Source: Methanobacteriota archaeon
GTDB lineage: Archaea; Thermoplasmatota; Poseidoniia; Poseidoniales; Thalassarchaeaceae
DNA length: 37,887 nt
Assembly: GCA_004195715.1 (NCBI GenBank)
Contig: PSPX01000020.1
Span: 1-37,887, forward strand
Direction: 5' to 3'
In this document: positions 6,884 through 15,913 of the stretch, piece by piece
Layout: each line of letters starts with the position of its first letter
Numbering within the stretch: position 1 is the first letter of the stretch
Notes under the pieces: generated by a model
What the model saw: only the letters and a program-made list of their open reading frames with translations
The model's database searches: none
Told to the model about the DNA's origin: nothing
Program-made: the position numbers and the translations under genes

Positions 6884-7066
6884 GTGAAGATAGGGATCTG
6901 GTACGAGTTCACGAAGGAAGAGAAGAAGGTGGTGAGGAAGGAACTGCGAGGGCTGAAGGCCAACACAGGTCAGGCAACCCCTGAAGAACTCATGGAGTGG
7001 GCGAAGAAGGTGATTCGAGAAGCCCTCGACACTGCTGCTGAGTATCAAAAGGAATACATACGGTGA
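6884..7066 (+). CDS. Small hypothetical protein (60 aa)
   Basis: Start GTG 6884 follows AAGGGGGGC; the stop overlaps the next GTG start (GTGA, 7063-7066). Lys/Glu-rich and helical (TKEEKKVVRKELRGLKAN, EELMEWAKKVIREALDTAAEYQKEYI). Coupling to the PP-loop gene suggests a joint role, but none can be named. Confidence 0.6.
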   Translation: MKIGIWYEFTKEEKKVVRKELRGLKANTGQATPEELMEWAKKVIREALDTAAEYQKEYIR

Positions 7067-7857
7067 GCGACTACGACTACACCTACTTGAGTTACGGTTG
7101 CGGTGTGCAGTCCACCGCTCTGCTGGTTCTCTCTGCCCTTGAGCAGCGAGGTGTGCCGAAGGTGGACGCAGCGATCTTCGCTGACACTGGCGACGAGCCA
7201 CAATACATCTATGACTACCTGGAGATCGTGAAGCCTTGGGCAGAGGACCACGGGATCCCTCTGCATATCTGCTCTGCTGGCAAACTAAGTGCCGACTTGC
7301 TTGAGACTGACCGGACCTTTGTAGCAATCCCGGCCTGGAGACCAATGGATGATGGCCGTGAGATGCCCATGCGTAGGCAATGTACGAGGGAGTACAAGGT
7401 CACGCCAATCGAGAAGAAGGTGCGGGAACTTTTAGGCTACCAACCTCGCCAGCGAATCAAGGAGAAGGTTCGGTGCTTCTTAGGCATTAGCATGGACGAA
7501 GTTACCAGGGTCAAACCTTCACGCACTTCATGGGTGACAAACGAGTGGCCTCTCATTGACGCAAGGTTGAGAAGGCCGCAATGCGTAGACATTGTGGAAG
7601 AAGCAGGGCTACCAAAACCATCCAAAAGCAGTTGCCACTATTGCCCTTATCATTCAAATAAATACTGGGAGTGGCTAAAGAAAAATCATACTGCCGATTT
7701 CCAAAAGGCAGTGGACTTCGACATAGCAATCAGGGAGTTGCATAAGGACGACCCGATGTATGTTCACCGATCTCTAAAGCCTCTTGGTGAGGTTGACCTC
7801 ACCGACTACCAACTCTCTCTTTGGGATGAGGAATGCGAGGGCTACTGTGGGATCTAG
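7063..7857 (+). CDS. PP-loop enzyme, PAPS-reductase/adenine nucleotide alpha-hydrolase family (264 aa)
   Basis: Starts at GTG 7063, overlapping the previous stop. The N-terminal SYGCGVQSTALL (residues 10-21) is the PP-loop variant of this family, which activates substrates by adenylation. RRQCTREYKVTPIEK (from about 105), GISMDEVTRVKPS (141-153) and SSCHYCPYHSNKYW (189-202) are the family's later landmarks. Cys107, Cys174, Cys191 and Cys194 could bind an Fe-S cluster or metal. True PAPS reductases have a C-terminal ECG(L)H motif, which I do not see; DndC-like or other sulfur/nucleotide chemistry is possible. It directly precedes the split DNA methyltransferase, suggesting a DNA-modification island. 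Confidence 0.8.
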   Translation: MSDYDYTYLSYGCGVQSTALLVLSALEQRGVPKVDAAIFADTGDEPQYIYDYLEIVKPWAEDHGIPLHICSAGKLSADLLETDRTFVAIPAWRPMDDGREMPMRRQCTREYKVTPIEKKVRELLGYQPRQRIKEKVRCFLGISMDEVTRVKPSRTSWVTNEWPLIDARLRRPQCVDIVEEAGLPKPSKSSCHYCPYHSNKYWEWLKKNHTADFQKAVDFDIAIRELHKDDPMYVHRSLKPLGEVDLTDYQLSLWDEECEGYCGI

Positions 7858-7865
7858 GGGGGGAA

Positions 7866-8420
7866 GTGAATGAGCTGGCACTATTCTCAGGCACTGGTGG
7901 ATGCATTCTCGGAGCGAGGCTTGCTGGTCACAAGGTCATCGCAGCGGTTGAAAACGAACCGTACTGCATCGAGGTCTTGCTTCGGAGGCAAGAGGATGGG
8001 TCGCTCGACCCCTTCCCAGTCTGGGATGACATACGATCATTTAACGGTAAACCTTGGAATGGCATCGTCGATGTTGTGTCTGCTGGATTCCCCTGCCAAC
8101 CCTATGCCCAGTGCGGCCATCAAGGAGGGGTCGAAGATGAACGGAACCTCTGGCCCGATACCTGTCGAGTCATTGGCGAAGTACGACCACGATACATCCT
8201 CTTGGAGAATGTCCCTCCCGTTGTTCAACACCTGGGAGGAGTATTGTCCGGAGACTTGGCCCGTCTCGGCTATGACTGTCGGTGGACAACTATATCCGCT
8301 CGTTCCGCAGGTGCCCCACACCTTCGGAAGCGATGGTGGTGCGTGGCCTACTCCAACAGCCAACACGAGACCGAACGAGGGGAATGTAAGATTGCTGCGA
8401 AAGCAAGTTCTCGAAGGTGA
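7866..8420 (+). CDS. DNA (cytosine-5) methyltransferase, N-terminal catalytic part (motifs I-VIII)
   Basis: From GTG 7866 (right behind AGGGGGGGAA) the 184-aa product begins MNELALFSGTGG, motif I for S-adenosylmethionine. It carries motif IV VVSAGFPCQP with the catalytic Cys (residue 77), motif VI YILLENVPPV (ENV near 114-116) and motif VIII-like HLRKRWWCVAYS near the end. It then stops at 8418-8420 without a target-recognition domain or motifs IX-X. Those occur in the +1 frame in the gene at 8137-8814. Compared with intact m5C methyltransferases of 300-450 aa this is a half enzyme. It either works with the second polypeptide, as in two-subunit M.AquI, or the frames are joined by frameshifting. 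An upstream ATG at 7833 lies inside the previous gene and is less likely. Confidence 0.85.
   Translation: MNELALFSGTGGCILGARLAGHKVIAAVENEPYCIEVLLRRQEDGSLDPFPVWDDIRSFNGKPWNGIVDVVSAGFPCQPYAQCGHQGGVEDERNLWPDTCRVIGEVRPRYILLENVPPVVQHLGGVLSGDLARLGYDCRWTTISARSAGAPHLRKRWWCVAYSNSQHETERGECKIAAKASSRR
8122..8130 (+). promoter_or_regulatory. Shine-Dalgarno sequence inside the methyltransferase gene
   Basis: AAGGAGGGG at 8122-8130 encodes part of the first subunit and lies six bases before ATG 8137 of the overlapping +1-frame gene. Strength and spacing are those of a real ribosome binding site, which decides the start of the second frame. Confidence 0.65.
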
Positions 8421-8814
8421 TCTGACTGAAGCAGAAGCCACAAGTATGCTCAACGGTAAGTCTCCCTTCTCTGCTCAGGGTGTGATCCCCGCCATGCCAA
8501 CACAAAACGATTTGAATGATGCCGTAGATCTCAAGGAGGGGCCAGACAATGGTGGTCGATTGAACCCCGATTGGGTGGAATGGCTCATGGGCTGGCCTGT
8601 GGGCTGGACCTCCCTCGACCCCCTCCCTGAAGGAACGATGGAAGCGTGGGAGACAAGCGTAAAGGCTGGCACTTACTGGGACACTGATCCAGCGGACACA
8701 GGGGATGTCCCCCGGCTAACAGAGAAGAAAGAGAATCGAGCTTCACGCTTGAAGGCAATCGGCAACGGGCAAGTCCCTGCTCAAATCCTCTTGGCTTGGG
8801 AAGTGCTGGGATGA
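8137..8814 (+). CDS. Methyltransferase C-terminal part (TRD-like region and motif X) in the overlapping +1 frame
   Basis: From ATG 8137 (225 aa), preceded by AAGGAGGGG, this frame overlaps the first methyltransferase frame for 284 bases. It contains SLAKYDHDTSSWRMS, WEEYCPETWPVSAMT and AWPTPTANTR, then LNPDWVEWLMGWPVGWT and, near the end, RLKAIGNGQVPAQILL, a motif X. These landmarks (LaKyD..tssW, WPTPTA, LNP.WVEWLMG.P.GWT, aiGNgqVP) are typical of phage cytosine methyltransferase C-terminal segments. The frame is open back to ATG 7870, giving 314 aa, but the first 90 residues show no conserved features. The stop overlaps the RuvC-like start (ATGA). Likely the DNA-recognition subunit; whether a fusion also forms is unknown. 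Confidence 0.8.
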   Translation: MNGTSGPIPVESLAKYDHDTSSWRMSLPLFNTWEEYCPETWPVSAMTVGGQLYPLVPQVPHTFGSDGGAWPTPTANTRPNEGNVRLLRKQVLEGDLTEAEATSMLNGKSPFSAQGVIPAMPTQNDLNDAVDLKEGPDNGGRLNPDWVEWLMGWPVGWTSLDPLPEGTMEAWETSVKAGTYWDTDPADTGDVPRLTEKKENRASRLKAIGNGQVPAQILLAWEVLG

Positions 8815-9233
8815 ACAGAATACTGTGCTTGGATCTCGGCACCACTACCGGGTTCGCCTTCCACAGTGAAGGAGATGTAAGCCACGGGATAAAGAAGTTC
8901 CCCAAAGACCTGGGCGAAAGGCTCCATGAGTTCTATGACTGGCTGCACACCCTCAGACCTGACCAAGTGATCTATGAAAAACTGTTCAATGCACCGGGCA
9001 GGTCGGCCCTTACCCTCAATGCCATGACCGGGGTGGTGATCCTTGTAGCCACGCAACGGGGCTGGGAGATCTCCAGTGTCTCACCCATGACCATCAAGAA
9101 GGCAGTCACAGGGACAGGCAGGGCCAGCAAGAAGGACATGGTGGAGTACATCCAGAAGAGATACCCAGAGGTCACAGACCACAATGAGGCAGACGCACTA
9201 GGTATATGGCTATGGTGTTCGGAAGCCGAATGA
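8811..9233 (+). CDS. RuvC-like Holliday junction endonuclease (140 aa)
   Basis: ATG 8811 overlaps the preceding stop (ATGA). The RNase H-fold signature is complete: ILCLDLGTTTGFAF with Asp8, VIYEKL with Glu56, and DHNEADALGIWLW with acidic residues near 126-128. The basic stretch TGTGRASKKDM lies where RuvC contacts DNA. Length 140 aa suits compact phage resolvases. It probably cleaves branched intermediates during recombination or before packaging, with the Sak4-like and SSB-like proteins. Confidence 0.85.
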   Translation: MNRILCLDLGTTTGFAFHSEGDVSHGIKKFPKDLGERLHEFYDWLHTLRPDQVIYEKLFNAPGRSALTLNAMTGVVILVATQRGWEISSVSPMTIKKAVTGTGRASKKDMVEYIQKRYPEVTDHNEADALGIWLWCSEAE

Positions 9234-10210: not shown

Positions 10211-13200
10211 CTAATCCTGCTCCACTTCGACAGTGCTGCCGGGTACAGGCTTGACGAATCCTCGTTCTTTAGCCCACTCCAGAAGGTACATGATCGGGCC
10301 AGTGGTTGCGGCACCGGGCCTGAGTGGAATGGGGAAGGGTGCCCCGTAGTCTTTCAGGTATCTTCGCCATTCTCTTTCGTTTTTTGGCGTGTCAAAGAGC
10401 AATGTCCCCAACCCAACAATTGAGTTAAGTGCCCCTGCTGCACCGGGAGCGACTTGACGACCAACTTCCCATGCCCAATCTGCGGTCTTCATAGGTCTGC
10501 CTCCAGTAGACCTGCGGTATGTCCACCAGAAACTTTCGGCCCTTCCACCCCACTTACCACCAATGCCAGTGCCCATGAGTGTGTCAAGGAAGCGGTCGCC
10601 AACAGTACGCTTTGGTCTCCGCTCCAGATCGGGGATACCTGCTTCTCTTCCCCACTCCTTGATTGAATCAAGCGCCCACCACACCAAGAAGGCTTGACCA
10701 CCTCTTTTGGCAACCATAGCAGCATTGGCGATGCCACCAGCATTGACCAAAGATTGCACTGCTCGATCCCCGTACAACTTGCTAACTGTTGATGGGAATC
10801 CCTGAAGGGTGTTCGTTACCATTTCAATAGCACGATCAATATCGGTTCTTACAGCCCCTTCATTGCCGGGAGTCCTACTCTGTTGTGCCAAGTCTTCTTT
10901 CCTTGGTCGCACAGAAGTTTCTTCAACATGAACAATGACACCATTCTCGAACTTTTCACCGAGTGTTTGGTTCCTCCACATACCAGGAGAGGCTTCCCTC
11001 AATCCTGTAGCAGAGGTTTTGTTGTGATCGAAATGGCTCCACTGCAGATAGGACGAACCTAGTTCCTGTTCTGTCATGCCCATTCTCAAAACATAATGGG
11101 ATTCGTTGGGGGTAAGGACTTCACCAAGAGCAATCTTCTCACCAATATCGAGTGCCCTAGTCGTGTGAAGTCTTGCGGCAGTACCCCTTACCACTGGTTG
11201 AGCAAAGGCAAAGAGACTTCCGTATTTCCAAACTTCTCCAGACACACCCTCAAACTTACCCAAAGCTCCTTGCCCCTTGTGGGTCTCGGGTACAGCAATG
11301 GTCCCTTCAAGAGATGCACCGCCGGGATCTCTGGTAAACTGTGCTGCGTTACTCATTATCTCTTTTTCTGCAGCCTCAACCATCTGAGTTATAGTTCTCA
11401 TCTCGTCAGGGGTAGGAGCGTCACCCCATGTCCTCTTTGCTCTGGCAATGATTGCCCTAGTAGTTGCGTCTAGTCCACGGATCAAACCTGAATCACTGTT
11501 CGCTATGGCAACAGCAATATCCATTGACGAGTTTATTGCAATGTTGGGTGCGGTCATAACACCCGAACCAAATCGGTTCATTGCCCTCAACATTGCTATT
11601 GTAGTGCTGGTTGAACTGAACTCCTGACCTATCAGGGAATCCCTGAGTGCTGCCATTCTTGAAGCAGTCAGGTTCATTTCCCTTGTGAGGTCGTCCTTAC
11701 TCTTGACCCCCCTCATGCGGTCCTTGACGCTAACCTTTTCGGGTGCCTCTTCTATCCTCTTCTCAAATGATCTTTTGATCTTCCCACCAAAGCCGACATC
11801 CAAGAAAACATACTGACCATTCCGCTCTGCTACACCAAGGGACATGGCACCAATAGCACTGTCATGTCTGACGGTAGATATTTCCGTGTTGAGTTGACTT
11901 CGGGTGACTTCTTTGCCGGGTCTTCGACCAAAGGTTTCTCGATAATCCCCGTCAGCCTTACGCTTGTCTGCTCTGGCATCTCTTCTGGCGATCCCTGCCT
12001 CTTGTATCTCCACCCTGGTTGCAGCGATCTCATCTGTAAGACTCTTCACCCTTGGGTCAATAGTGTTCGCCTCTCGACGCAAGTAGCGTTGAAGTCTCTG
12101 GCCGTCTGTGTCTCTATCAAGTTTGCTTGTGAGTCTTTCGATGCGAGATTCTAGTTCAACAATCTCATTGTGGTTGGCACTGTTCTCAGACAGCAGATCC
12201 TCTCTCTTCTTGACAGCCCCGTCAAAGTCCAGAGCGTTCTTGCCCCTGCCTAACTTGTAGCCACCCCTTCTCCCTCCAATGTGTGCTAGTGCTTCGGGTG
12301 AAGGACTGAGCGGATCTCCCCATCCATCTATCAGTTTCCGTAATGCTTTGATTTGTCTGGATGTTTCAAGGTGTACCTTGTTACTCCACTGAGCAGGTGG
12401 TCTGCCTTGATATTCAATGTCAAGTTCTCTGAGGAAGTCCAATTCTCCGGTGAGTTCTTCAAGTTTCTTCAGGTCGGAAGGGCTGAGATCAGGTGCCTTG
12501 AAATCCTCCAAGTCCTTCTGGACCTTTTCAAGTTGTTCAGCAGCACGAGTAGCAGCCTTCTCCTCAGAGGGGAGCATCTTCTCATGGTCACGAGAGGCGA
12601 ACTTGCGAAGAGATTTCTCCGGCAGGTTTTCTTCTAGGTACTTAATGTCCTTGTTCGCATCTGCCCTCTTGTAGTCAGGTGTATCCTTCCGACCACCAAC
12701 TCGCCAGCGGAGAACCCTAACCCTTGCCTCTGAAACATTGACGCTTCTTTCGGAGTATAGAATTCTCCCTTCAGCCTTGTTCTTTGCAGACTCAATCCTC
12801 TTGAGTTTCCTGTTCATTAGAGTTTCGATCTTCTTCCCGACCTTCTCGATTTCAACTCGCAGTTCTACTTCAGGTACTTGCACACCCTCGTCTATCCTGG
12901 CGGCTTGCAAGTCAAGTTTGTTTACCAGTTCAACCTGTGCGTCTTCCTTGAGACCCTTAGCCCACACTTCAATGTCTGCTATTTGCCCAGCGTTTTCGTC
13001 ATAGGCATCTTCGAGATCAATGAGTCTGTTCTCTTCACCAACAACGGTGTTGTAAGAGTCAAGGATTTCCTGATCTCTTGTGTCGAACTGATTGCGAACT
13101 TCCTCGGTAAGTTCCTGCCTGACAGTCATTCTCTCTTGGACAAGTTCCTGCCTTCTCTCTCGTAGACGCTGATGGATTGATCCTGCATCTTTTGCTGTTT

Positions 13201-15913
13201 GAGTGGCAGCTTTATGGGCATCAATGTTTTCATTGAAGTCAGCAAGGTGATCCTGTGGGTTGCCACCCTCCATCCTACTCTTCCTGAGTGCGGCAGATTG
13301 GGGTATGACTTCGTAGTTGAGATCGTCGGTGTGGGTGGGGGTGCGGGGGGTGGGTGGATCTGTTCTGTTATATCCAATGAGTTTTTCAAACGACATCGGG
13401 CCGGGTTGGCTTTCTCCACCAGCGTAGTATTTTATATTCACTGGGATATGAGTAAGCCCTGCTTCCTTTGCCGCTCTGACACGGTGGTTGCCTTCATTTA
13501 TTCTTACGGAACCATCGAATTCAACATTGAGAAACACTGGTCTTTCGGGGTCAAAACCACTTTCCTCTATGCTCTTGGTTAGTTTCTGTATATTCGCTTG
13601 GCTCCTAGAACCTCCCATTCGAAGATGCTCACCAGTCATACCCTCCAGTTTCAGTAAATCTTCTACCGGAACTAAAACCTCATCTACCCACGCCGTAGTA
13701 GACCCACCTCTTTTATACGGTGTTACTCCTCCACCCGTGACTAATGGGCTTCGCTCGACCCCTTGTATATCCCCTGCCAACCACTCACCACCGGGGTTGT
13801 CTACCCGAACACTTCTTGCCCCGGTTGCTGCGGTTAGTTGTTCTCCTGACATCTCCAACGGGTCAACATTCACCTCAGGCACCACGCCCGGAGCCTCGCC
13901 CTCCACTGGAGCAGGGCGCAGTTTCGGTAGGGTGACTGCCGTACCCTCTTCGCTAAGGGCTGCCAGTATTACTGCATTGGTGTCGGCGTTACTTCGACGA
14001 AGATTGCCACGGAAGAGGGCACTTGGATCGTCATAGAACATATCCATGACCCTGTAAGGTAAGTCTATTGTCCGTTCCTTCGCAGTGCCCGGTTCCTCGA
14101 TACCCCTGTTGCTAATCTCTGCCGTGACATGACCGTCTTCGCCAAGATGGAAACCCAACTTTGCCGCTGGTGGTTCCGCACCACGAATGATAGCACTCAG
14201 CGATTTGAATGCGGCTTCATCCGCTTTCTCTGGGCTAAAACCATTCTCTTCGTAATACTTCTTTGCTTTCTCAAGGAACGCATCTTGTCGGTCTGGCATA
14301 TCAATCAGTTCTTTGCGACGACCAACATGGGGGAAATAGTTTTCTTTGGGAGCGGCAAGACCTACTGCTTCACCCAACTCTCTATATTCACCAAAGACCT
14401 TTCGATCTATTCGGGCAGCAAATTCTCTGAGTTGCTTTTTAACATCGTCTGGAATATGACTGAACTCGTCTGCATCAAGACGAGATGCCCCCTCGTCAAG
14501 AACCTGGATCAATGCTGAGTAGTATTGCTTCGAATGAAGAGGACTGTTCTTGGCAAGGATACTTGCCTCGTCAAACAGGCTGTTGATCCGCAGTAACCTT
14601 GCGGCAGAAAGTTCAGAAACATTCTGAACAACCGCTGGGTTCTCTGCTGCACGGAAAACATACTGTGATTCGTTGGGGATACGGATTTCTTCCGTAATAT
14701 CCTCTAGCCGGGGGACTTCATCGGCCCAATCGTATCGCCTCCCCGTTGGGGGAGTATCCCTTACCTCCGTCCATATGTCCACCATGTCGGCATGACGACC
14801 AAGTTGGAAGTATGTCGCACGGACCACTGGGTCGGTGGAGTGCTGCATATCTGAAATGGGTCCACGCAACCAGTAAGTGGAAGCGTTATCTAATGCTCGT
14901 ATTTTCCTTATGAGACCACCAGCAATGACACTGTAATCCTCACCATTGTCTAGTCTTCTCTGCATTTCAGTAACTGTTTTTTGAACATTCTCTATTGACC
15001 TGGCCCTTGATATTTCTTGAGGAACTTCAGGGGAAATACTGGGGTGGTGGAGAATGTCACGCCAATATCTATCACCAAGTTTTAGAACTTCATTCGTACT
15101 ATATTTAGCAAGGGCACCACCACCTACCATTAACCCGACAAGGGCAGCAGAAGTTGCACCAGCAAAGATAATGTCATTCCGTGTCACCTTGTCGTCAAAG
15201 TAGGACTCGAACCCCATACTTGCAACGCCAGCCAAAGCACCCTGAGCCAGTATCCCAGAAACAGGTGGCACACCATTGAGGCTTTTCCTGAAGGCAACCG
15301 CTTCTTCTGCAGTGAGAGTCCCACCTCTACTCTTGAGTACCTTCTTCACTCTCCTCGCTTGTTTGAACGCTGCCGATAACTGCAAAAGTTTAGGGCCAAT
15401 GAGTATGTTTGTTGGATCGGCAAGCATATTGGCAAGAAACCAACCACTCCAACCAGCGGCCCCTTGCTCACTGATGTTTTCAAAGTCTTCCATTTCTCCG
15501 AGAACAGAACTTATTCGTCTGTTCAGATCGACCGGACCCGTGGACTCCATGATGTAGTTTCTGTTGTCTGAATTTGCTTCAAAGATCTGAACCATAGACT
15601 CCGGTGAAATAACTCCGTCACCGAACCTAGTCCCCCCGGTCCTCTTTTTTAGTTGCTCTATTGGGTTCCAGTCTTTACCTGTGTCCTGTCGGTATTGTTT
15701 AGACCAGTCCCCGCTCCACTCGTCGTAAGGAATACCCTCGTCGTTCCACCAATCCACTACTTTCCCTATGGGACTCTGACGGAAGATTGCACCAATGTTG
15801 GAACCAAACTCTTCCCAAGCAGTGCCAATAACGCTGAAATCTTCTTGTGGAATAAGAGGGGGAGCTTCGCTATTGTCAATATCTGGAATGCTATCGTTTT
15901 GATCATCCAGCAT
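10211..15913 (-). CDS. Giant internal virion/ejection protein with embedded ParB-like domain (1900 aa)
   Basis: Last and largest of three successive big genes after the tail proteins, matching the position of T7 gene 16. Residues about 215-270 have two membrane-like Ala/Gly helices (GILAQGALAGVASMGF; IIFAGATSAALVGLMVGGG). KENYFPHVGRR in the first third recalls phage ejection proteins. Around residues 700-830 lies a ParB/sulfiredoxin-like module (V-P-V-E-D-L-L, IQKLTKSIEESGF, INEGNHRVRAAKEAG). Long charged coiled coils fill about 880-1400. The C-terminus includes NRFGSGVMTAPNIAINS and ends in hydrophobic and Pro-rich segments. No lytic transglycosylase motif seen. It likely enters the cell with the DNA and forms part of the trans-envelope channel. 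The start overlaps the previous stop (TAATG). Confidence 0.75.
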   Translation of the reverse strand: MLDDQNDSIPDIDNSEAPPLIPQEDFSVIGTAWEEFGSNIGAIFRQSPIGKVVDWWNDEGIPYDEWSGDWSKQYRQDTGKDWNPIEQLKKRTGGTRFGDGVISPESMVQIFEANSDNRNYIMESTGPVDLNRRISSVLGEMEDFENISEQGAAGWSGWFLANMLADPTNILIGPKLLQLSAAFKQARRVKKVLKSRGGTLTAEEAVAFRKSLNGVPPVSGILAQGALAGVASMGFESYFDDKVTRNDIIFAGATSAALVGLMVGGGALAKYSTNEVLKLGDRYWRDILHHPSISPEVPQEISRARSIENVQKTVTEMQRRLDNGEDYSVIAGGLIRKIRALDNASTYWLRGPISDMQHSTDPVVRATYFQLGRHADMVDIWTEVRDTPPTGRRYDWADEVPRLEDITEEIRIPNESQYVFRAAENPAVVQNVSELSAARLLRINSLFDEASILAKNSPLHSKQYYSALIQVLDEGASRLDADEFSHIPDDVKKQLREFAARIDRKVFGEYRELGEAVGLAAPKENYFPHVGRRKELIDMPDRQDAFLEKAKKYYEENGFSPEKADEAAFKSLSAIIRGAEPPAAKLGFHLGEDGHVTAEISNRGIEEPGTAKERTIDLPYRVMDMFYDDPSALFRGNLRRSNADTNAVILAALSEEGTAVTLPKLRPAPVEGEAPGVVPEVNVDPLEMSGEQLTAATGARSVRVDNPGGEWLAGDIQGVERSPLVTGGGVTPYKRGGSTTAWVDEVLVPVEDLLKLEGMTGEHLRMGGSRSQANIQKLTKSIEESGFDPERPVFLNVEFDGSVRINEGNHRVRAAKEAGLTHIPVNIKYYAGGESQPGPMSFEKLIGYNRTDPPTPRTPTHTDDLNYEVIPQSAALRKSRMEGGNPQDHLADFNENIDAHKAATQTAKDAGSIHQRLRERRQELVQERMTVRQELTEEVRNQFDTRDQEILDSYNTVVGEENRLIDLEDAYDENAGQIADIEVWAKGLKEDAQVELVNKLDLQAARIDEGVQVPEVELRVEIEKVGKKIETLMNRKLKRIESAKNKAEGRILYSERSVNVSEARVRVLRWRVGGRKDTPDYKRADANKDIKYLEENLPEKSLRKFASRDHEKMLPSEEKAATRAAEQLEKVQKDLEDFKAPDLSPSDLKKLEELTGELDFLRELDIEYQGRPPAQWSNKVHLETSRQIKALRKLIDGWGDPLSPSPEALAHIGGRRGGYKLGRGKNALDFDGAVKKREDLLSENSANHNEIVELESRIERLTSKLDRDTDGQRLQRYLRREANTIDPRVKSLTDEIAATRVEIQEAGIARRDARADKRKADGDYRETFGRRPGKEVTRSQLNTEISTVRHDSAIGAMSLGVAERNGQYVFLDVGFGGKIKRSFEKRIEEAPEKVSVKDRMRGVKSKDDLTREMNLTASRMAALRDSLIGQEFSSTSTTIAMLRAMNRFGSGVMTAPNIAINSSMDIAVAIANSDSGLIRGLDATTRAIIARAKRTWGDAPTPDEMRTITQMVEAAEKEIMSNAAQFTRDPGGASLEGTIAVPETHKGQGALGKFEGVSGEVWKYGSLFAFAQPVVRGTAARLHTTRALDIGEKIALGEVLTPNESHYVLRMGMTEQELGSSYLQWSHFDHNKTSATGLREASPGMWRNQTLGEKFENGVIVHVEETSVRPRKEDLAQQSRTPGNEGAVRTDIDRAIEMVTNTLQGFPSTVSKLYGDRAVQSLVNAGGIANAAMVAKRGGQAFLVWWALDSIKEWGREAGIPDLERRPKRTVGDRFLDTLMGTGIGGKWGGRAESFWWTYRRSTGGRPMKTADWAWEVGRQVAPGAAGALNSIVGLGTLLFDTPKNEREWRRYLKDYGAPFPIPLRPGAATTGPIMYLLEWAKERGFVKPVPGSTVEVEQD
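13420..13770 (-). other. ParB-like domain inside the giant ejection protein
   Basis: The coding stretch for about residues 715-830 has the ParB N-terminal-like pattern: WVDEVLVPVEDLLKLEG, then IQKLTKSIEESGF, PVFLNVEFDGS, INEGNHRVRAAKEAG and HIPVNIKYY. The E-G-N-H-R box corresponds to the nucleotide-binding/catalytic G-E-R-R box of ParB/Srx. Boundaries are approximate. Confidence 0.6.

Follow-up and report, generated by a model that had tools for sequence, protein, structure and literature searches.

Genes and features of the locus

The window, i.e., the whole stretch of 37,887 nucleotides that was analysed, is a phage genome, with terminase, portal and major head protein recognised on its minus strand. 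It matches the IMG/VR contig 3300001683_000060 and is also present as contig C14 of a 1.45-Mb genome bin (G000); G000:C14 is the whole window, a phage contig placed within a bacterial genome bin. Since the second reading frame described below (beta) was not found in 39 genomes related to this bin, the locus is probably phage-borne, the host being assigned by binning only. From its sequence, this bacterial virus appears to encode a DNA-marking enzyme as two halves that are read from the same DNA in two frames. The features of the locus are as follows.

7857-7863, plus strand: G-run GGGGGGG, Shine-Dalgarno-like, which could serve both starts (hexamer duplex energy down to -8.6 kcal/mol)
7866-8420, plus strand: alpha coding sequence, GTG start; predicted C5-cytosine methyltransferase catalytic subunit with motifs I-VIII, without IX and X
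7875-7901, plus strand: motif I LALFSGTGG, cofactor binding, alpha frame (sequence and alignments)
8085-8099, plus strand: motif IV GFPCQ with the catalytic Cys, alpha frame; G74, P76 and C77 invariant in 72 alphas
8205-8213, plus strand: motif VI ENV, alpha frame; E114 and N115 invariant in 72 alphas
8325-8333, plus strand: motif VIII RKR, alpha frame; R154 and R156 invariant in 72 alphas
7870-8814, plus strand: beta coding sequence, an open frame of 314 aa in the +1 frame of alpha, with an ATG 4 bases after the alpha start
7870-7932, plus strand: beta N-terminal segment MSWHYSQALVDAFSERGLLVT, conserved and dual-coded with alpha motif I (33.3 bits, set against shuffles)
7933-8136, plus strand: beta linker, kept open; amino-acid constraint not beyond that of alpha (real sequence equal to shuffles)
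8122-8139, plus strand: Shine-Dalgarno-like AAGGAGGGG (8122-8130), 6 bases before ATG 8137; -11.9 kcal/mol, not conserved
8143-8400, plus strand: beta scaffold, SLAKYDHDTSSWR to WPTPTANTRP, conserved and dual-coded with alpha motifs VI-VIII (phrog_1008, shuffle test)
8344-8490, plus strand: beta putative target-recognition cassette 1, WPTPTANTRPNEGNVRLLRKQVLEGDLTEAEATSMLNGKSPFSAQGVIP; 58-72% identical cassettes occur beside distant alphas
8491-8556, plus strand: beta degenerate second cassette, AMPTQNDLNDAVD... (alignment)
8557-8607, plus strand: beta motif-IX-like block RLNPDWVEWLMGWPVGW, 90% conserved columns
8746-8778, plus strand: motif X RLKAIGNGQVP, beta frame (frame tally; weak hhalign register to canonical motif X)

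The first-pass annotation had described a frame with motifs I, IV, VI and VIII ending at 8420 and a +1 frame with WPTPTA and motif X running to 8814. Both were recovered, the latter being open over its full length. Alpha, to which an upstream in-frame ATG at 7833 is available besides the GTG, matched Pfam PF00145 (E=5e-33) over profile positions 4-168 of 324, i.e., over the N-terminal half only. Among the features of this superfamily, motifs I, IV (PCQ), VI (ENV) and VIII (RxR) and the Rossmann-type domain are found in alpha, and all invariant residues of these four motifs are kept; motif X (GN..VP) is also found, but it is read from the beta frame. The AlphaFold2 model of alpha (pLDDT 88) had M.HhaI as top PDB match (E=4e-14), and the modelled fold is that of the M.HhaI catalytic domain. 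Alpha is predicted to be the AdoMet-binding catalytic subunit.

Beta contains the landmarks SLAKYDHDTSSW, WPTPTA, LNPDWVEWLMGWP and motif X. It matched the PHROG family phrog_1008 ‘DNA methyltransferase’ (E=5e-26), most strongly within the overlap, and the same family was matched by all 72 betas scanned. No match was obtained with beta in Pfam, nor with the beta profile among PDB sequences, and the AlphaFold2 model of beta alone, of low confidence (pLDDT 67, pTM 0.42), matched no PDB structure. In hhalign comparisons with the C-terminal regions of canonical C5-methyltransferases, beta gave weak registers for motifs IX and X only. LNPDWVEWLMGWPVGW aligned in register with canonical motif IX, the match being weak (P=0.06), and this motif IX assignment is the weakest link of the reading. 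At the place of the degenerate second cassette of the window, a full WPTPQSRDWKSG cassette is retained in a related locus (L008).

The methyltransferase genes lie between a PP-loop/PAPS-reductase-like gene (7063-7857; phrog_424, E=1e-35), directly 5′ and ending at the ribosome site that both frames would share, and a RuvC-like resolvase gene (8811-9233), directly 3′ and beginning where beta ends. A RuvC-like gene is likewise found near the methyltransferase of Paenibacillus phage Shelly. Further downstream, the minus strand encodes a 1900-residue protein (10211-15913) with a short ParB-like stretch at about residues 770-830. The neighbouring genes of the window had no matches in related contigs, so that no synonymous-rate baseline was available from them.

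Dual coding and the start of beta

Dual coding was assessed by permuting the synonymous codons of alpha, with alpha protein and codon usage preserved, and rescoring the +1 frame with a beta profile trained solely on loci outside the clade of the window. From alpha nucleotide 271 to its end, the +1 frame scored 90.0 bits versus 44.2±9.0 for 200 shuffles (maximum 69.9), none of which reached the real score. For the 8 other members of the clade, the real score was reached by at most one of 200 shuffles. Besides, the +1 frame contained no stop between the positions equivalent to 8046 and 8375 of the window, versus about 103 expected (45 unique loci; as the loci are related and not independent, probabilities in this work are indicative, and kinship inflates some statistics). 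The +2 frame of the same loci had no stop deficit. In canonical C5-methyltransferases of the same phylum, +1 stops occurred at the expected number and the beta profile gave -0.2 to 8 bits, with the exception of one control (L266, 65 bits) that appears to be a member of the two-frame family. Both frames show constraint in the clade of the window, and the overlap is dual-coding. The first-pass annotation had pointed to constraint on the second frame before 8420 as a check of its proposal, and such constraint is present in the window, the clade and the family (shuffles, stop deficit). Its central claim, namely that two overlapping frames encode a C5-methyltransferase in two parts and that the gene is not a broken one, is borne out by PF00145, phrog_1008 and the shuffle test. 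It had placed the dual-coded part at about 280 bases from 8137; the dual coding stands, and its extent is to be revised, probably starting from 7870.

The start of beta was addressed in 146 loci, divided according to whether the +1 frame was open to nucleotide 190 (112 loci) or not (34 loci). A start codon lay exactly 4 bases after the alpha start in 103 of the former versus 4 of the latter (Fisher P=5e-19, no strict probability since the loci are related). Of the 91 open loci with Asn at alpha codon 2, 90 use AAT, which creates the ATG, while alpha genes overall use AAC 528 times versus 212 for AAT. Synonymous codon bias in these twin-start loci was highest at codons 2-16 (0.78 bits), ranged from 0.27 to 0.34 at codons 17-76, was lowest at codons 77-91 (0.11) and rose to 0.30-0.64 from codon 92. 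The remaining 43 loci served as an internal control, with a bias of 0.04-0.09 in codons 2-61 followed by the same later rise. Of the 103 twin-start loci, 89 have a Shine-Dalgarno site; its median spacing is 4 from the start of alpha, which places it 8 from that of beta. Part of the constraint on alpha codons 2-16 may act at the nucleotide level, through initiation.

In the window itself, a first test of the N-terminal part of beta with a mixed training set gave no signal over nucleotides 1-270. When the region was split and the profile trained on twin-start loci, the N-terminal signal was limited to the first 21 residues (33.3 bits versus 13.9±6.9; none of 300 shuffles reached the real score). 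The following 68 codons were unconstrained beyond alpha and the remainder was constrained. Within the clade, omega over codons 2-20 was 0.44 for beta versus 0.83 for alpha, from few independent events. Beta probably starts at ATG 7870, 4 bases after the alpha start; hence, 551 of the 555 bases of alpha may be dual-coding.

The most serious competing reading keeps the same two-subunit enzyme and starts beta internally, either at ATG 8137 with its own ribosome site, as the first-pass annotation had it, or at the conserved ATGs 8059/8071, leaving about 280-360 dual-coding bases. The strong AAGGAGGGG site does lie six bases before ATG 8137, and a start with a site as strong arose in 17 of 1000 synonymous shuffles. 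Moreover, beta is constrained again at the amino-acid level only from about 8137 on, the family-wide stop-free stretch begins at about 8046, and the 43 relatives outside the twin-start group must start beta internally. However, the window is of the twin-start type, with its ATG at +4, its open frame and its N-terminal signal, whereas ATG 8137 is missing from the close relatives L008 and L009, where a Thr is encoded. Family-wide, Shine-Dalgarno energies pointed to no consistent internal start. The site before 8137 is where it had been described, but it is probably not the start of beta, and internal initiation in place of 7870 is rated as unlikely. As the linker 7933-8136 lacks beta-specific amino-acid constraint, an internal start near 8059-8137, also in addition to 7870, is nevertheless possible in the window. 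In another locus (L060), a long G homopolymer, a possible slippage site, lies inside alpha about 250-270 nucleotides after its start, just before a candidate internal beta start.

Spread of the family, exchangeable cassettes and the frame of motif X

Loci were collected by scans with alpha and with a beta alignment, together with phage and plasmid records. This yielded 219 unique loci with alpha, nearly all with beta in the +1 frame, and loci gathered by alpha alone, hence without selection for beta, also carry it. The long overlap is not confined to the window but typical of the family, with more than 200 loci in phages and prophages. Two layouts were distinguished. In the nested one (167 loci, of which 159 are open in every frame), the alpha frame includes motif X and beta lies inside a full-length alpha. 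In the split one (35 loci, 34 fully open), a short alpha is accompanied by a beta that contains motif X.

The variable middle of beta consists of cassettes that open with WPTP, with a median of 36 residues and up to 7 per protein. Cassettes at least 55% identical were found in 323 segment pairs from loci whose alphas are less than 55% identical. This is illustrated by the RPNEGNVRLLRKQVLEG cassette of the window, which recurs at 58-72% identity beside alphas only 31-35% identical. Such a distribution indicates exchange of the WPTP-bounded cassettes among distantly related alphas. Wherever the alpha frame, too, is open across the cassettes, beta-codon positions 1, 2 and 3 differ by 0.33, 0.27 and 0.62, respectively, and identity is 0.63 in the beta frame versus 0.27 in the alpha frame. 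According to this substitution pattern, the cassettes are coded in the frame of beta even where alpha stays open. Because variable, exchangeable cassettes precede motif IX/X, as in target-recognition domains, we infer that beta is the specificity subunit. Beta could instead be an unrelated protein, e.g., an inhibitor, overprinted on a methyltransferase, as its failure to match Pfam or PDB would allow. Yet motif X, needed in a C5-methyltransferase, sits in beta in 35 loci, the alphas have no recognisable target domain, and cassette-type variation is typical of target recognition, which makes an unrelated protein very unlikely. In L009, the gene directly after beta (L009:3570-4466) encodes a product with SPPYYGLRDYG-type motifs; it looks like a second DNA methyltransferase, of the amino type.

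On a tree of 202 alphas, the split state requires at least 17 changes, 10 of them forced by well-supported branches; motif X has therefore changed frame repeatedly. The window and 8 further loci form a clade of nine (support 97%), all split, within which the alpha stop varies from 492 to 579 nt. This bears on the suggestion of a programmed +1 frameshift near 8420, where alpha ends ...CGA AGG TGA: a single alpha-beta fusion would hold all motifs in canonical order, but the scattered stops leave no shift site common to all, a shift at 8420 would lose the conserved beta reading of 8137-8420, and nested relatives would require two shifts. The suggestion was set aside as highly improbable. An indel, whether a sequencing error or the split of a decaying pseudogene, is conceivable for a metagenome contig and an enzyme class that is mostly single-frame. 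The shuffle test and the conservation within the clade are regarded as refuting it, and its likelihood is negligible, since an indel cannot yield two conserved readings of the same bases, the layout is common to nine contigs and both frames are constrained.

Some members of the family are already annotated. The nested frame of Paenibacillus phage Shelly (g55/g56) is recorded as ‘g55 internal gene’, and in mycobacteriophages Eagle and Bora two ‘DNA methylase’ genes lie side by side. In these two mycobacteriophages (L247, L248), the annotated overlap is short and the beta frame is open upstream over a shorter distance than in other relatives, possibly a less-overlapping form. Acinetobacter phage ABMM1 is a relative of the twin-start type. 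Beta has probably been overlooked in many phage annotations, or called a second ‘DNA methylase’. In two further loci (L047:3001-3813 and L055:3001-3810), the motif-IX block is read from the alpha frame and motif X from a third frame, and a nearby glycine-codon repeat differs between these loci by one codon; this is possibly a frame-switching (phase-variable) state. No paper on the nested phage family was found in the literature searched, which does not include most subscription journals.

Proposed enzyme and known systems

Taken together, the locus is considered likely to encode a two-subunit orphan phage C5-cytosine methyltransferase in fully overlapping frames, with a catalytic alpha, a specificity beta and twin starts. 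Ribosomes recruited to a single Shine-Dalgarno site would initiate either at GTG 7866, giving alpha, or at ATG 7870, giving beta. Beta would comprise a conserved peptide at the N-terminus, followed by a free linker, a scaffold with exchangeable cassettes, a motif-IX-like block and motif X. Both chains would assemble as a heterodimer, i.e., one enzyme, that would methylate the phage genome, most likely protecting it against host restriction. Motif X belongs to alpha in most relatives, with beta wholly nested, whereas in the lineage of the window it has moved to the beta frame and alpha has become shorter. Translation, assembly, activity and biological role of the pair are predicted from sequence. 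The broader picture is held with less confidence but still considered probable: an ancient, widespread phage family whose subunits are overprinted nearly end to end and share a ribosome site, in which cassettes are exchanged in one frame without closing the other and motif X has jumped from frame to frame during evolution.

Long dual coding on the same strand has seldom been demonstrated in DNA phages, and these hundreds of loci constitute a natural experiment on the co-evolution of two frames, with an internal control in the relatives with a later beta start, which lack constraint in the same codons. They suggest a mechanism of start selection, in which twin starts 4 bases apart would set the subunit ratio, and an evolutionary step, the frame switching of motif X. 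They also suggest that cytosine methylation could be programmed from a library of cassettes, the specificity chain being detachable.

Multispecific phage C5-methyltransferases of the SPbeta/phi3T type have been described (Trautner et al., 1996, cited in PMC12707154). The cassettes of the window family, with a median of 36 residues and up to 7 copies, resemble their tandem exchangeable target units; however, those are single-chain, single-frame enzymes. The exchangeable target-recognition domains of these tandem arrays are reportedly about 40 residues long. The ‘DNA methyltransferase’ families phrog_363 and phrog_1008 correspond to the same family as the alpha/beta pair. So does Shelly g55/g56, but there beta starts internally and alpha contains motif X; among the records examined, none states that such a pair is one enzyme.

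The genes of the cyanobacterial M.AquI overlap slightly. This enzyme (CYCGRG) has motifs I-VIII in alpha and the distal variable region with motifs IX-X in beta (PMC3404938). The window shows the same division of motifs, but 284-551 bases overlap here versus little in M.AquI, which the first-pass annotation had cited as precedent for overlapping alpha and beta genes. M.EcoHK31I (E. coli, YGGCCR) is a two-polypeptide C5-methyltransferase in which alpha carries motifs I-VIII and a separate small chain provides motif IX only (PMC3404938). Lee, Kam and Shaw are said to have reported in 1995 that this beta is encoded in an alternative frame within alpha, and a second chain from an overlapping alternative frame is likewise what the window shows. 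In M.EcoHK31I, however, motif X and the published predicted target domain belong to alpha, whereas motif X and the cassettes of the window belong to beta. The pattern of motif X in alpha and motif IX alone in beta, absent from the window, is found in about 165 of its relatives. Another difference is that the frames of the window start 4 bases apart, M.EcoHK31I being compared by its description. The precedent closest to the nested arrangement is M.EcoHK31I, not M.AquI. The window combines an M.AquI-like partition with M.EcoHK31I-like dual coding and lacks one defining feature of each. A single enzyme of this general type had been known before, but the gene layout described here appears to be new, more extreme and common to a large unrecognised phage family.
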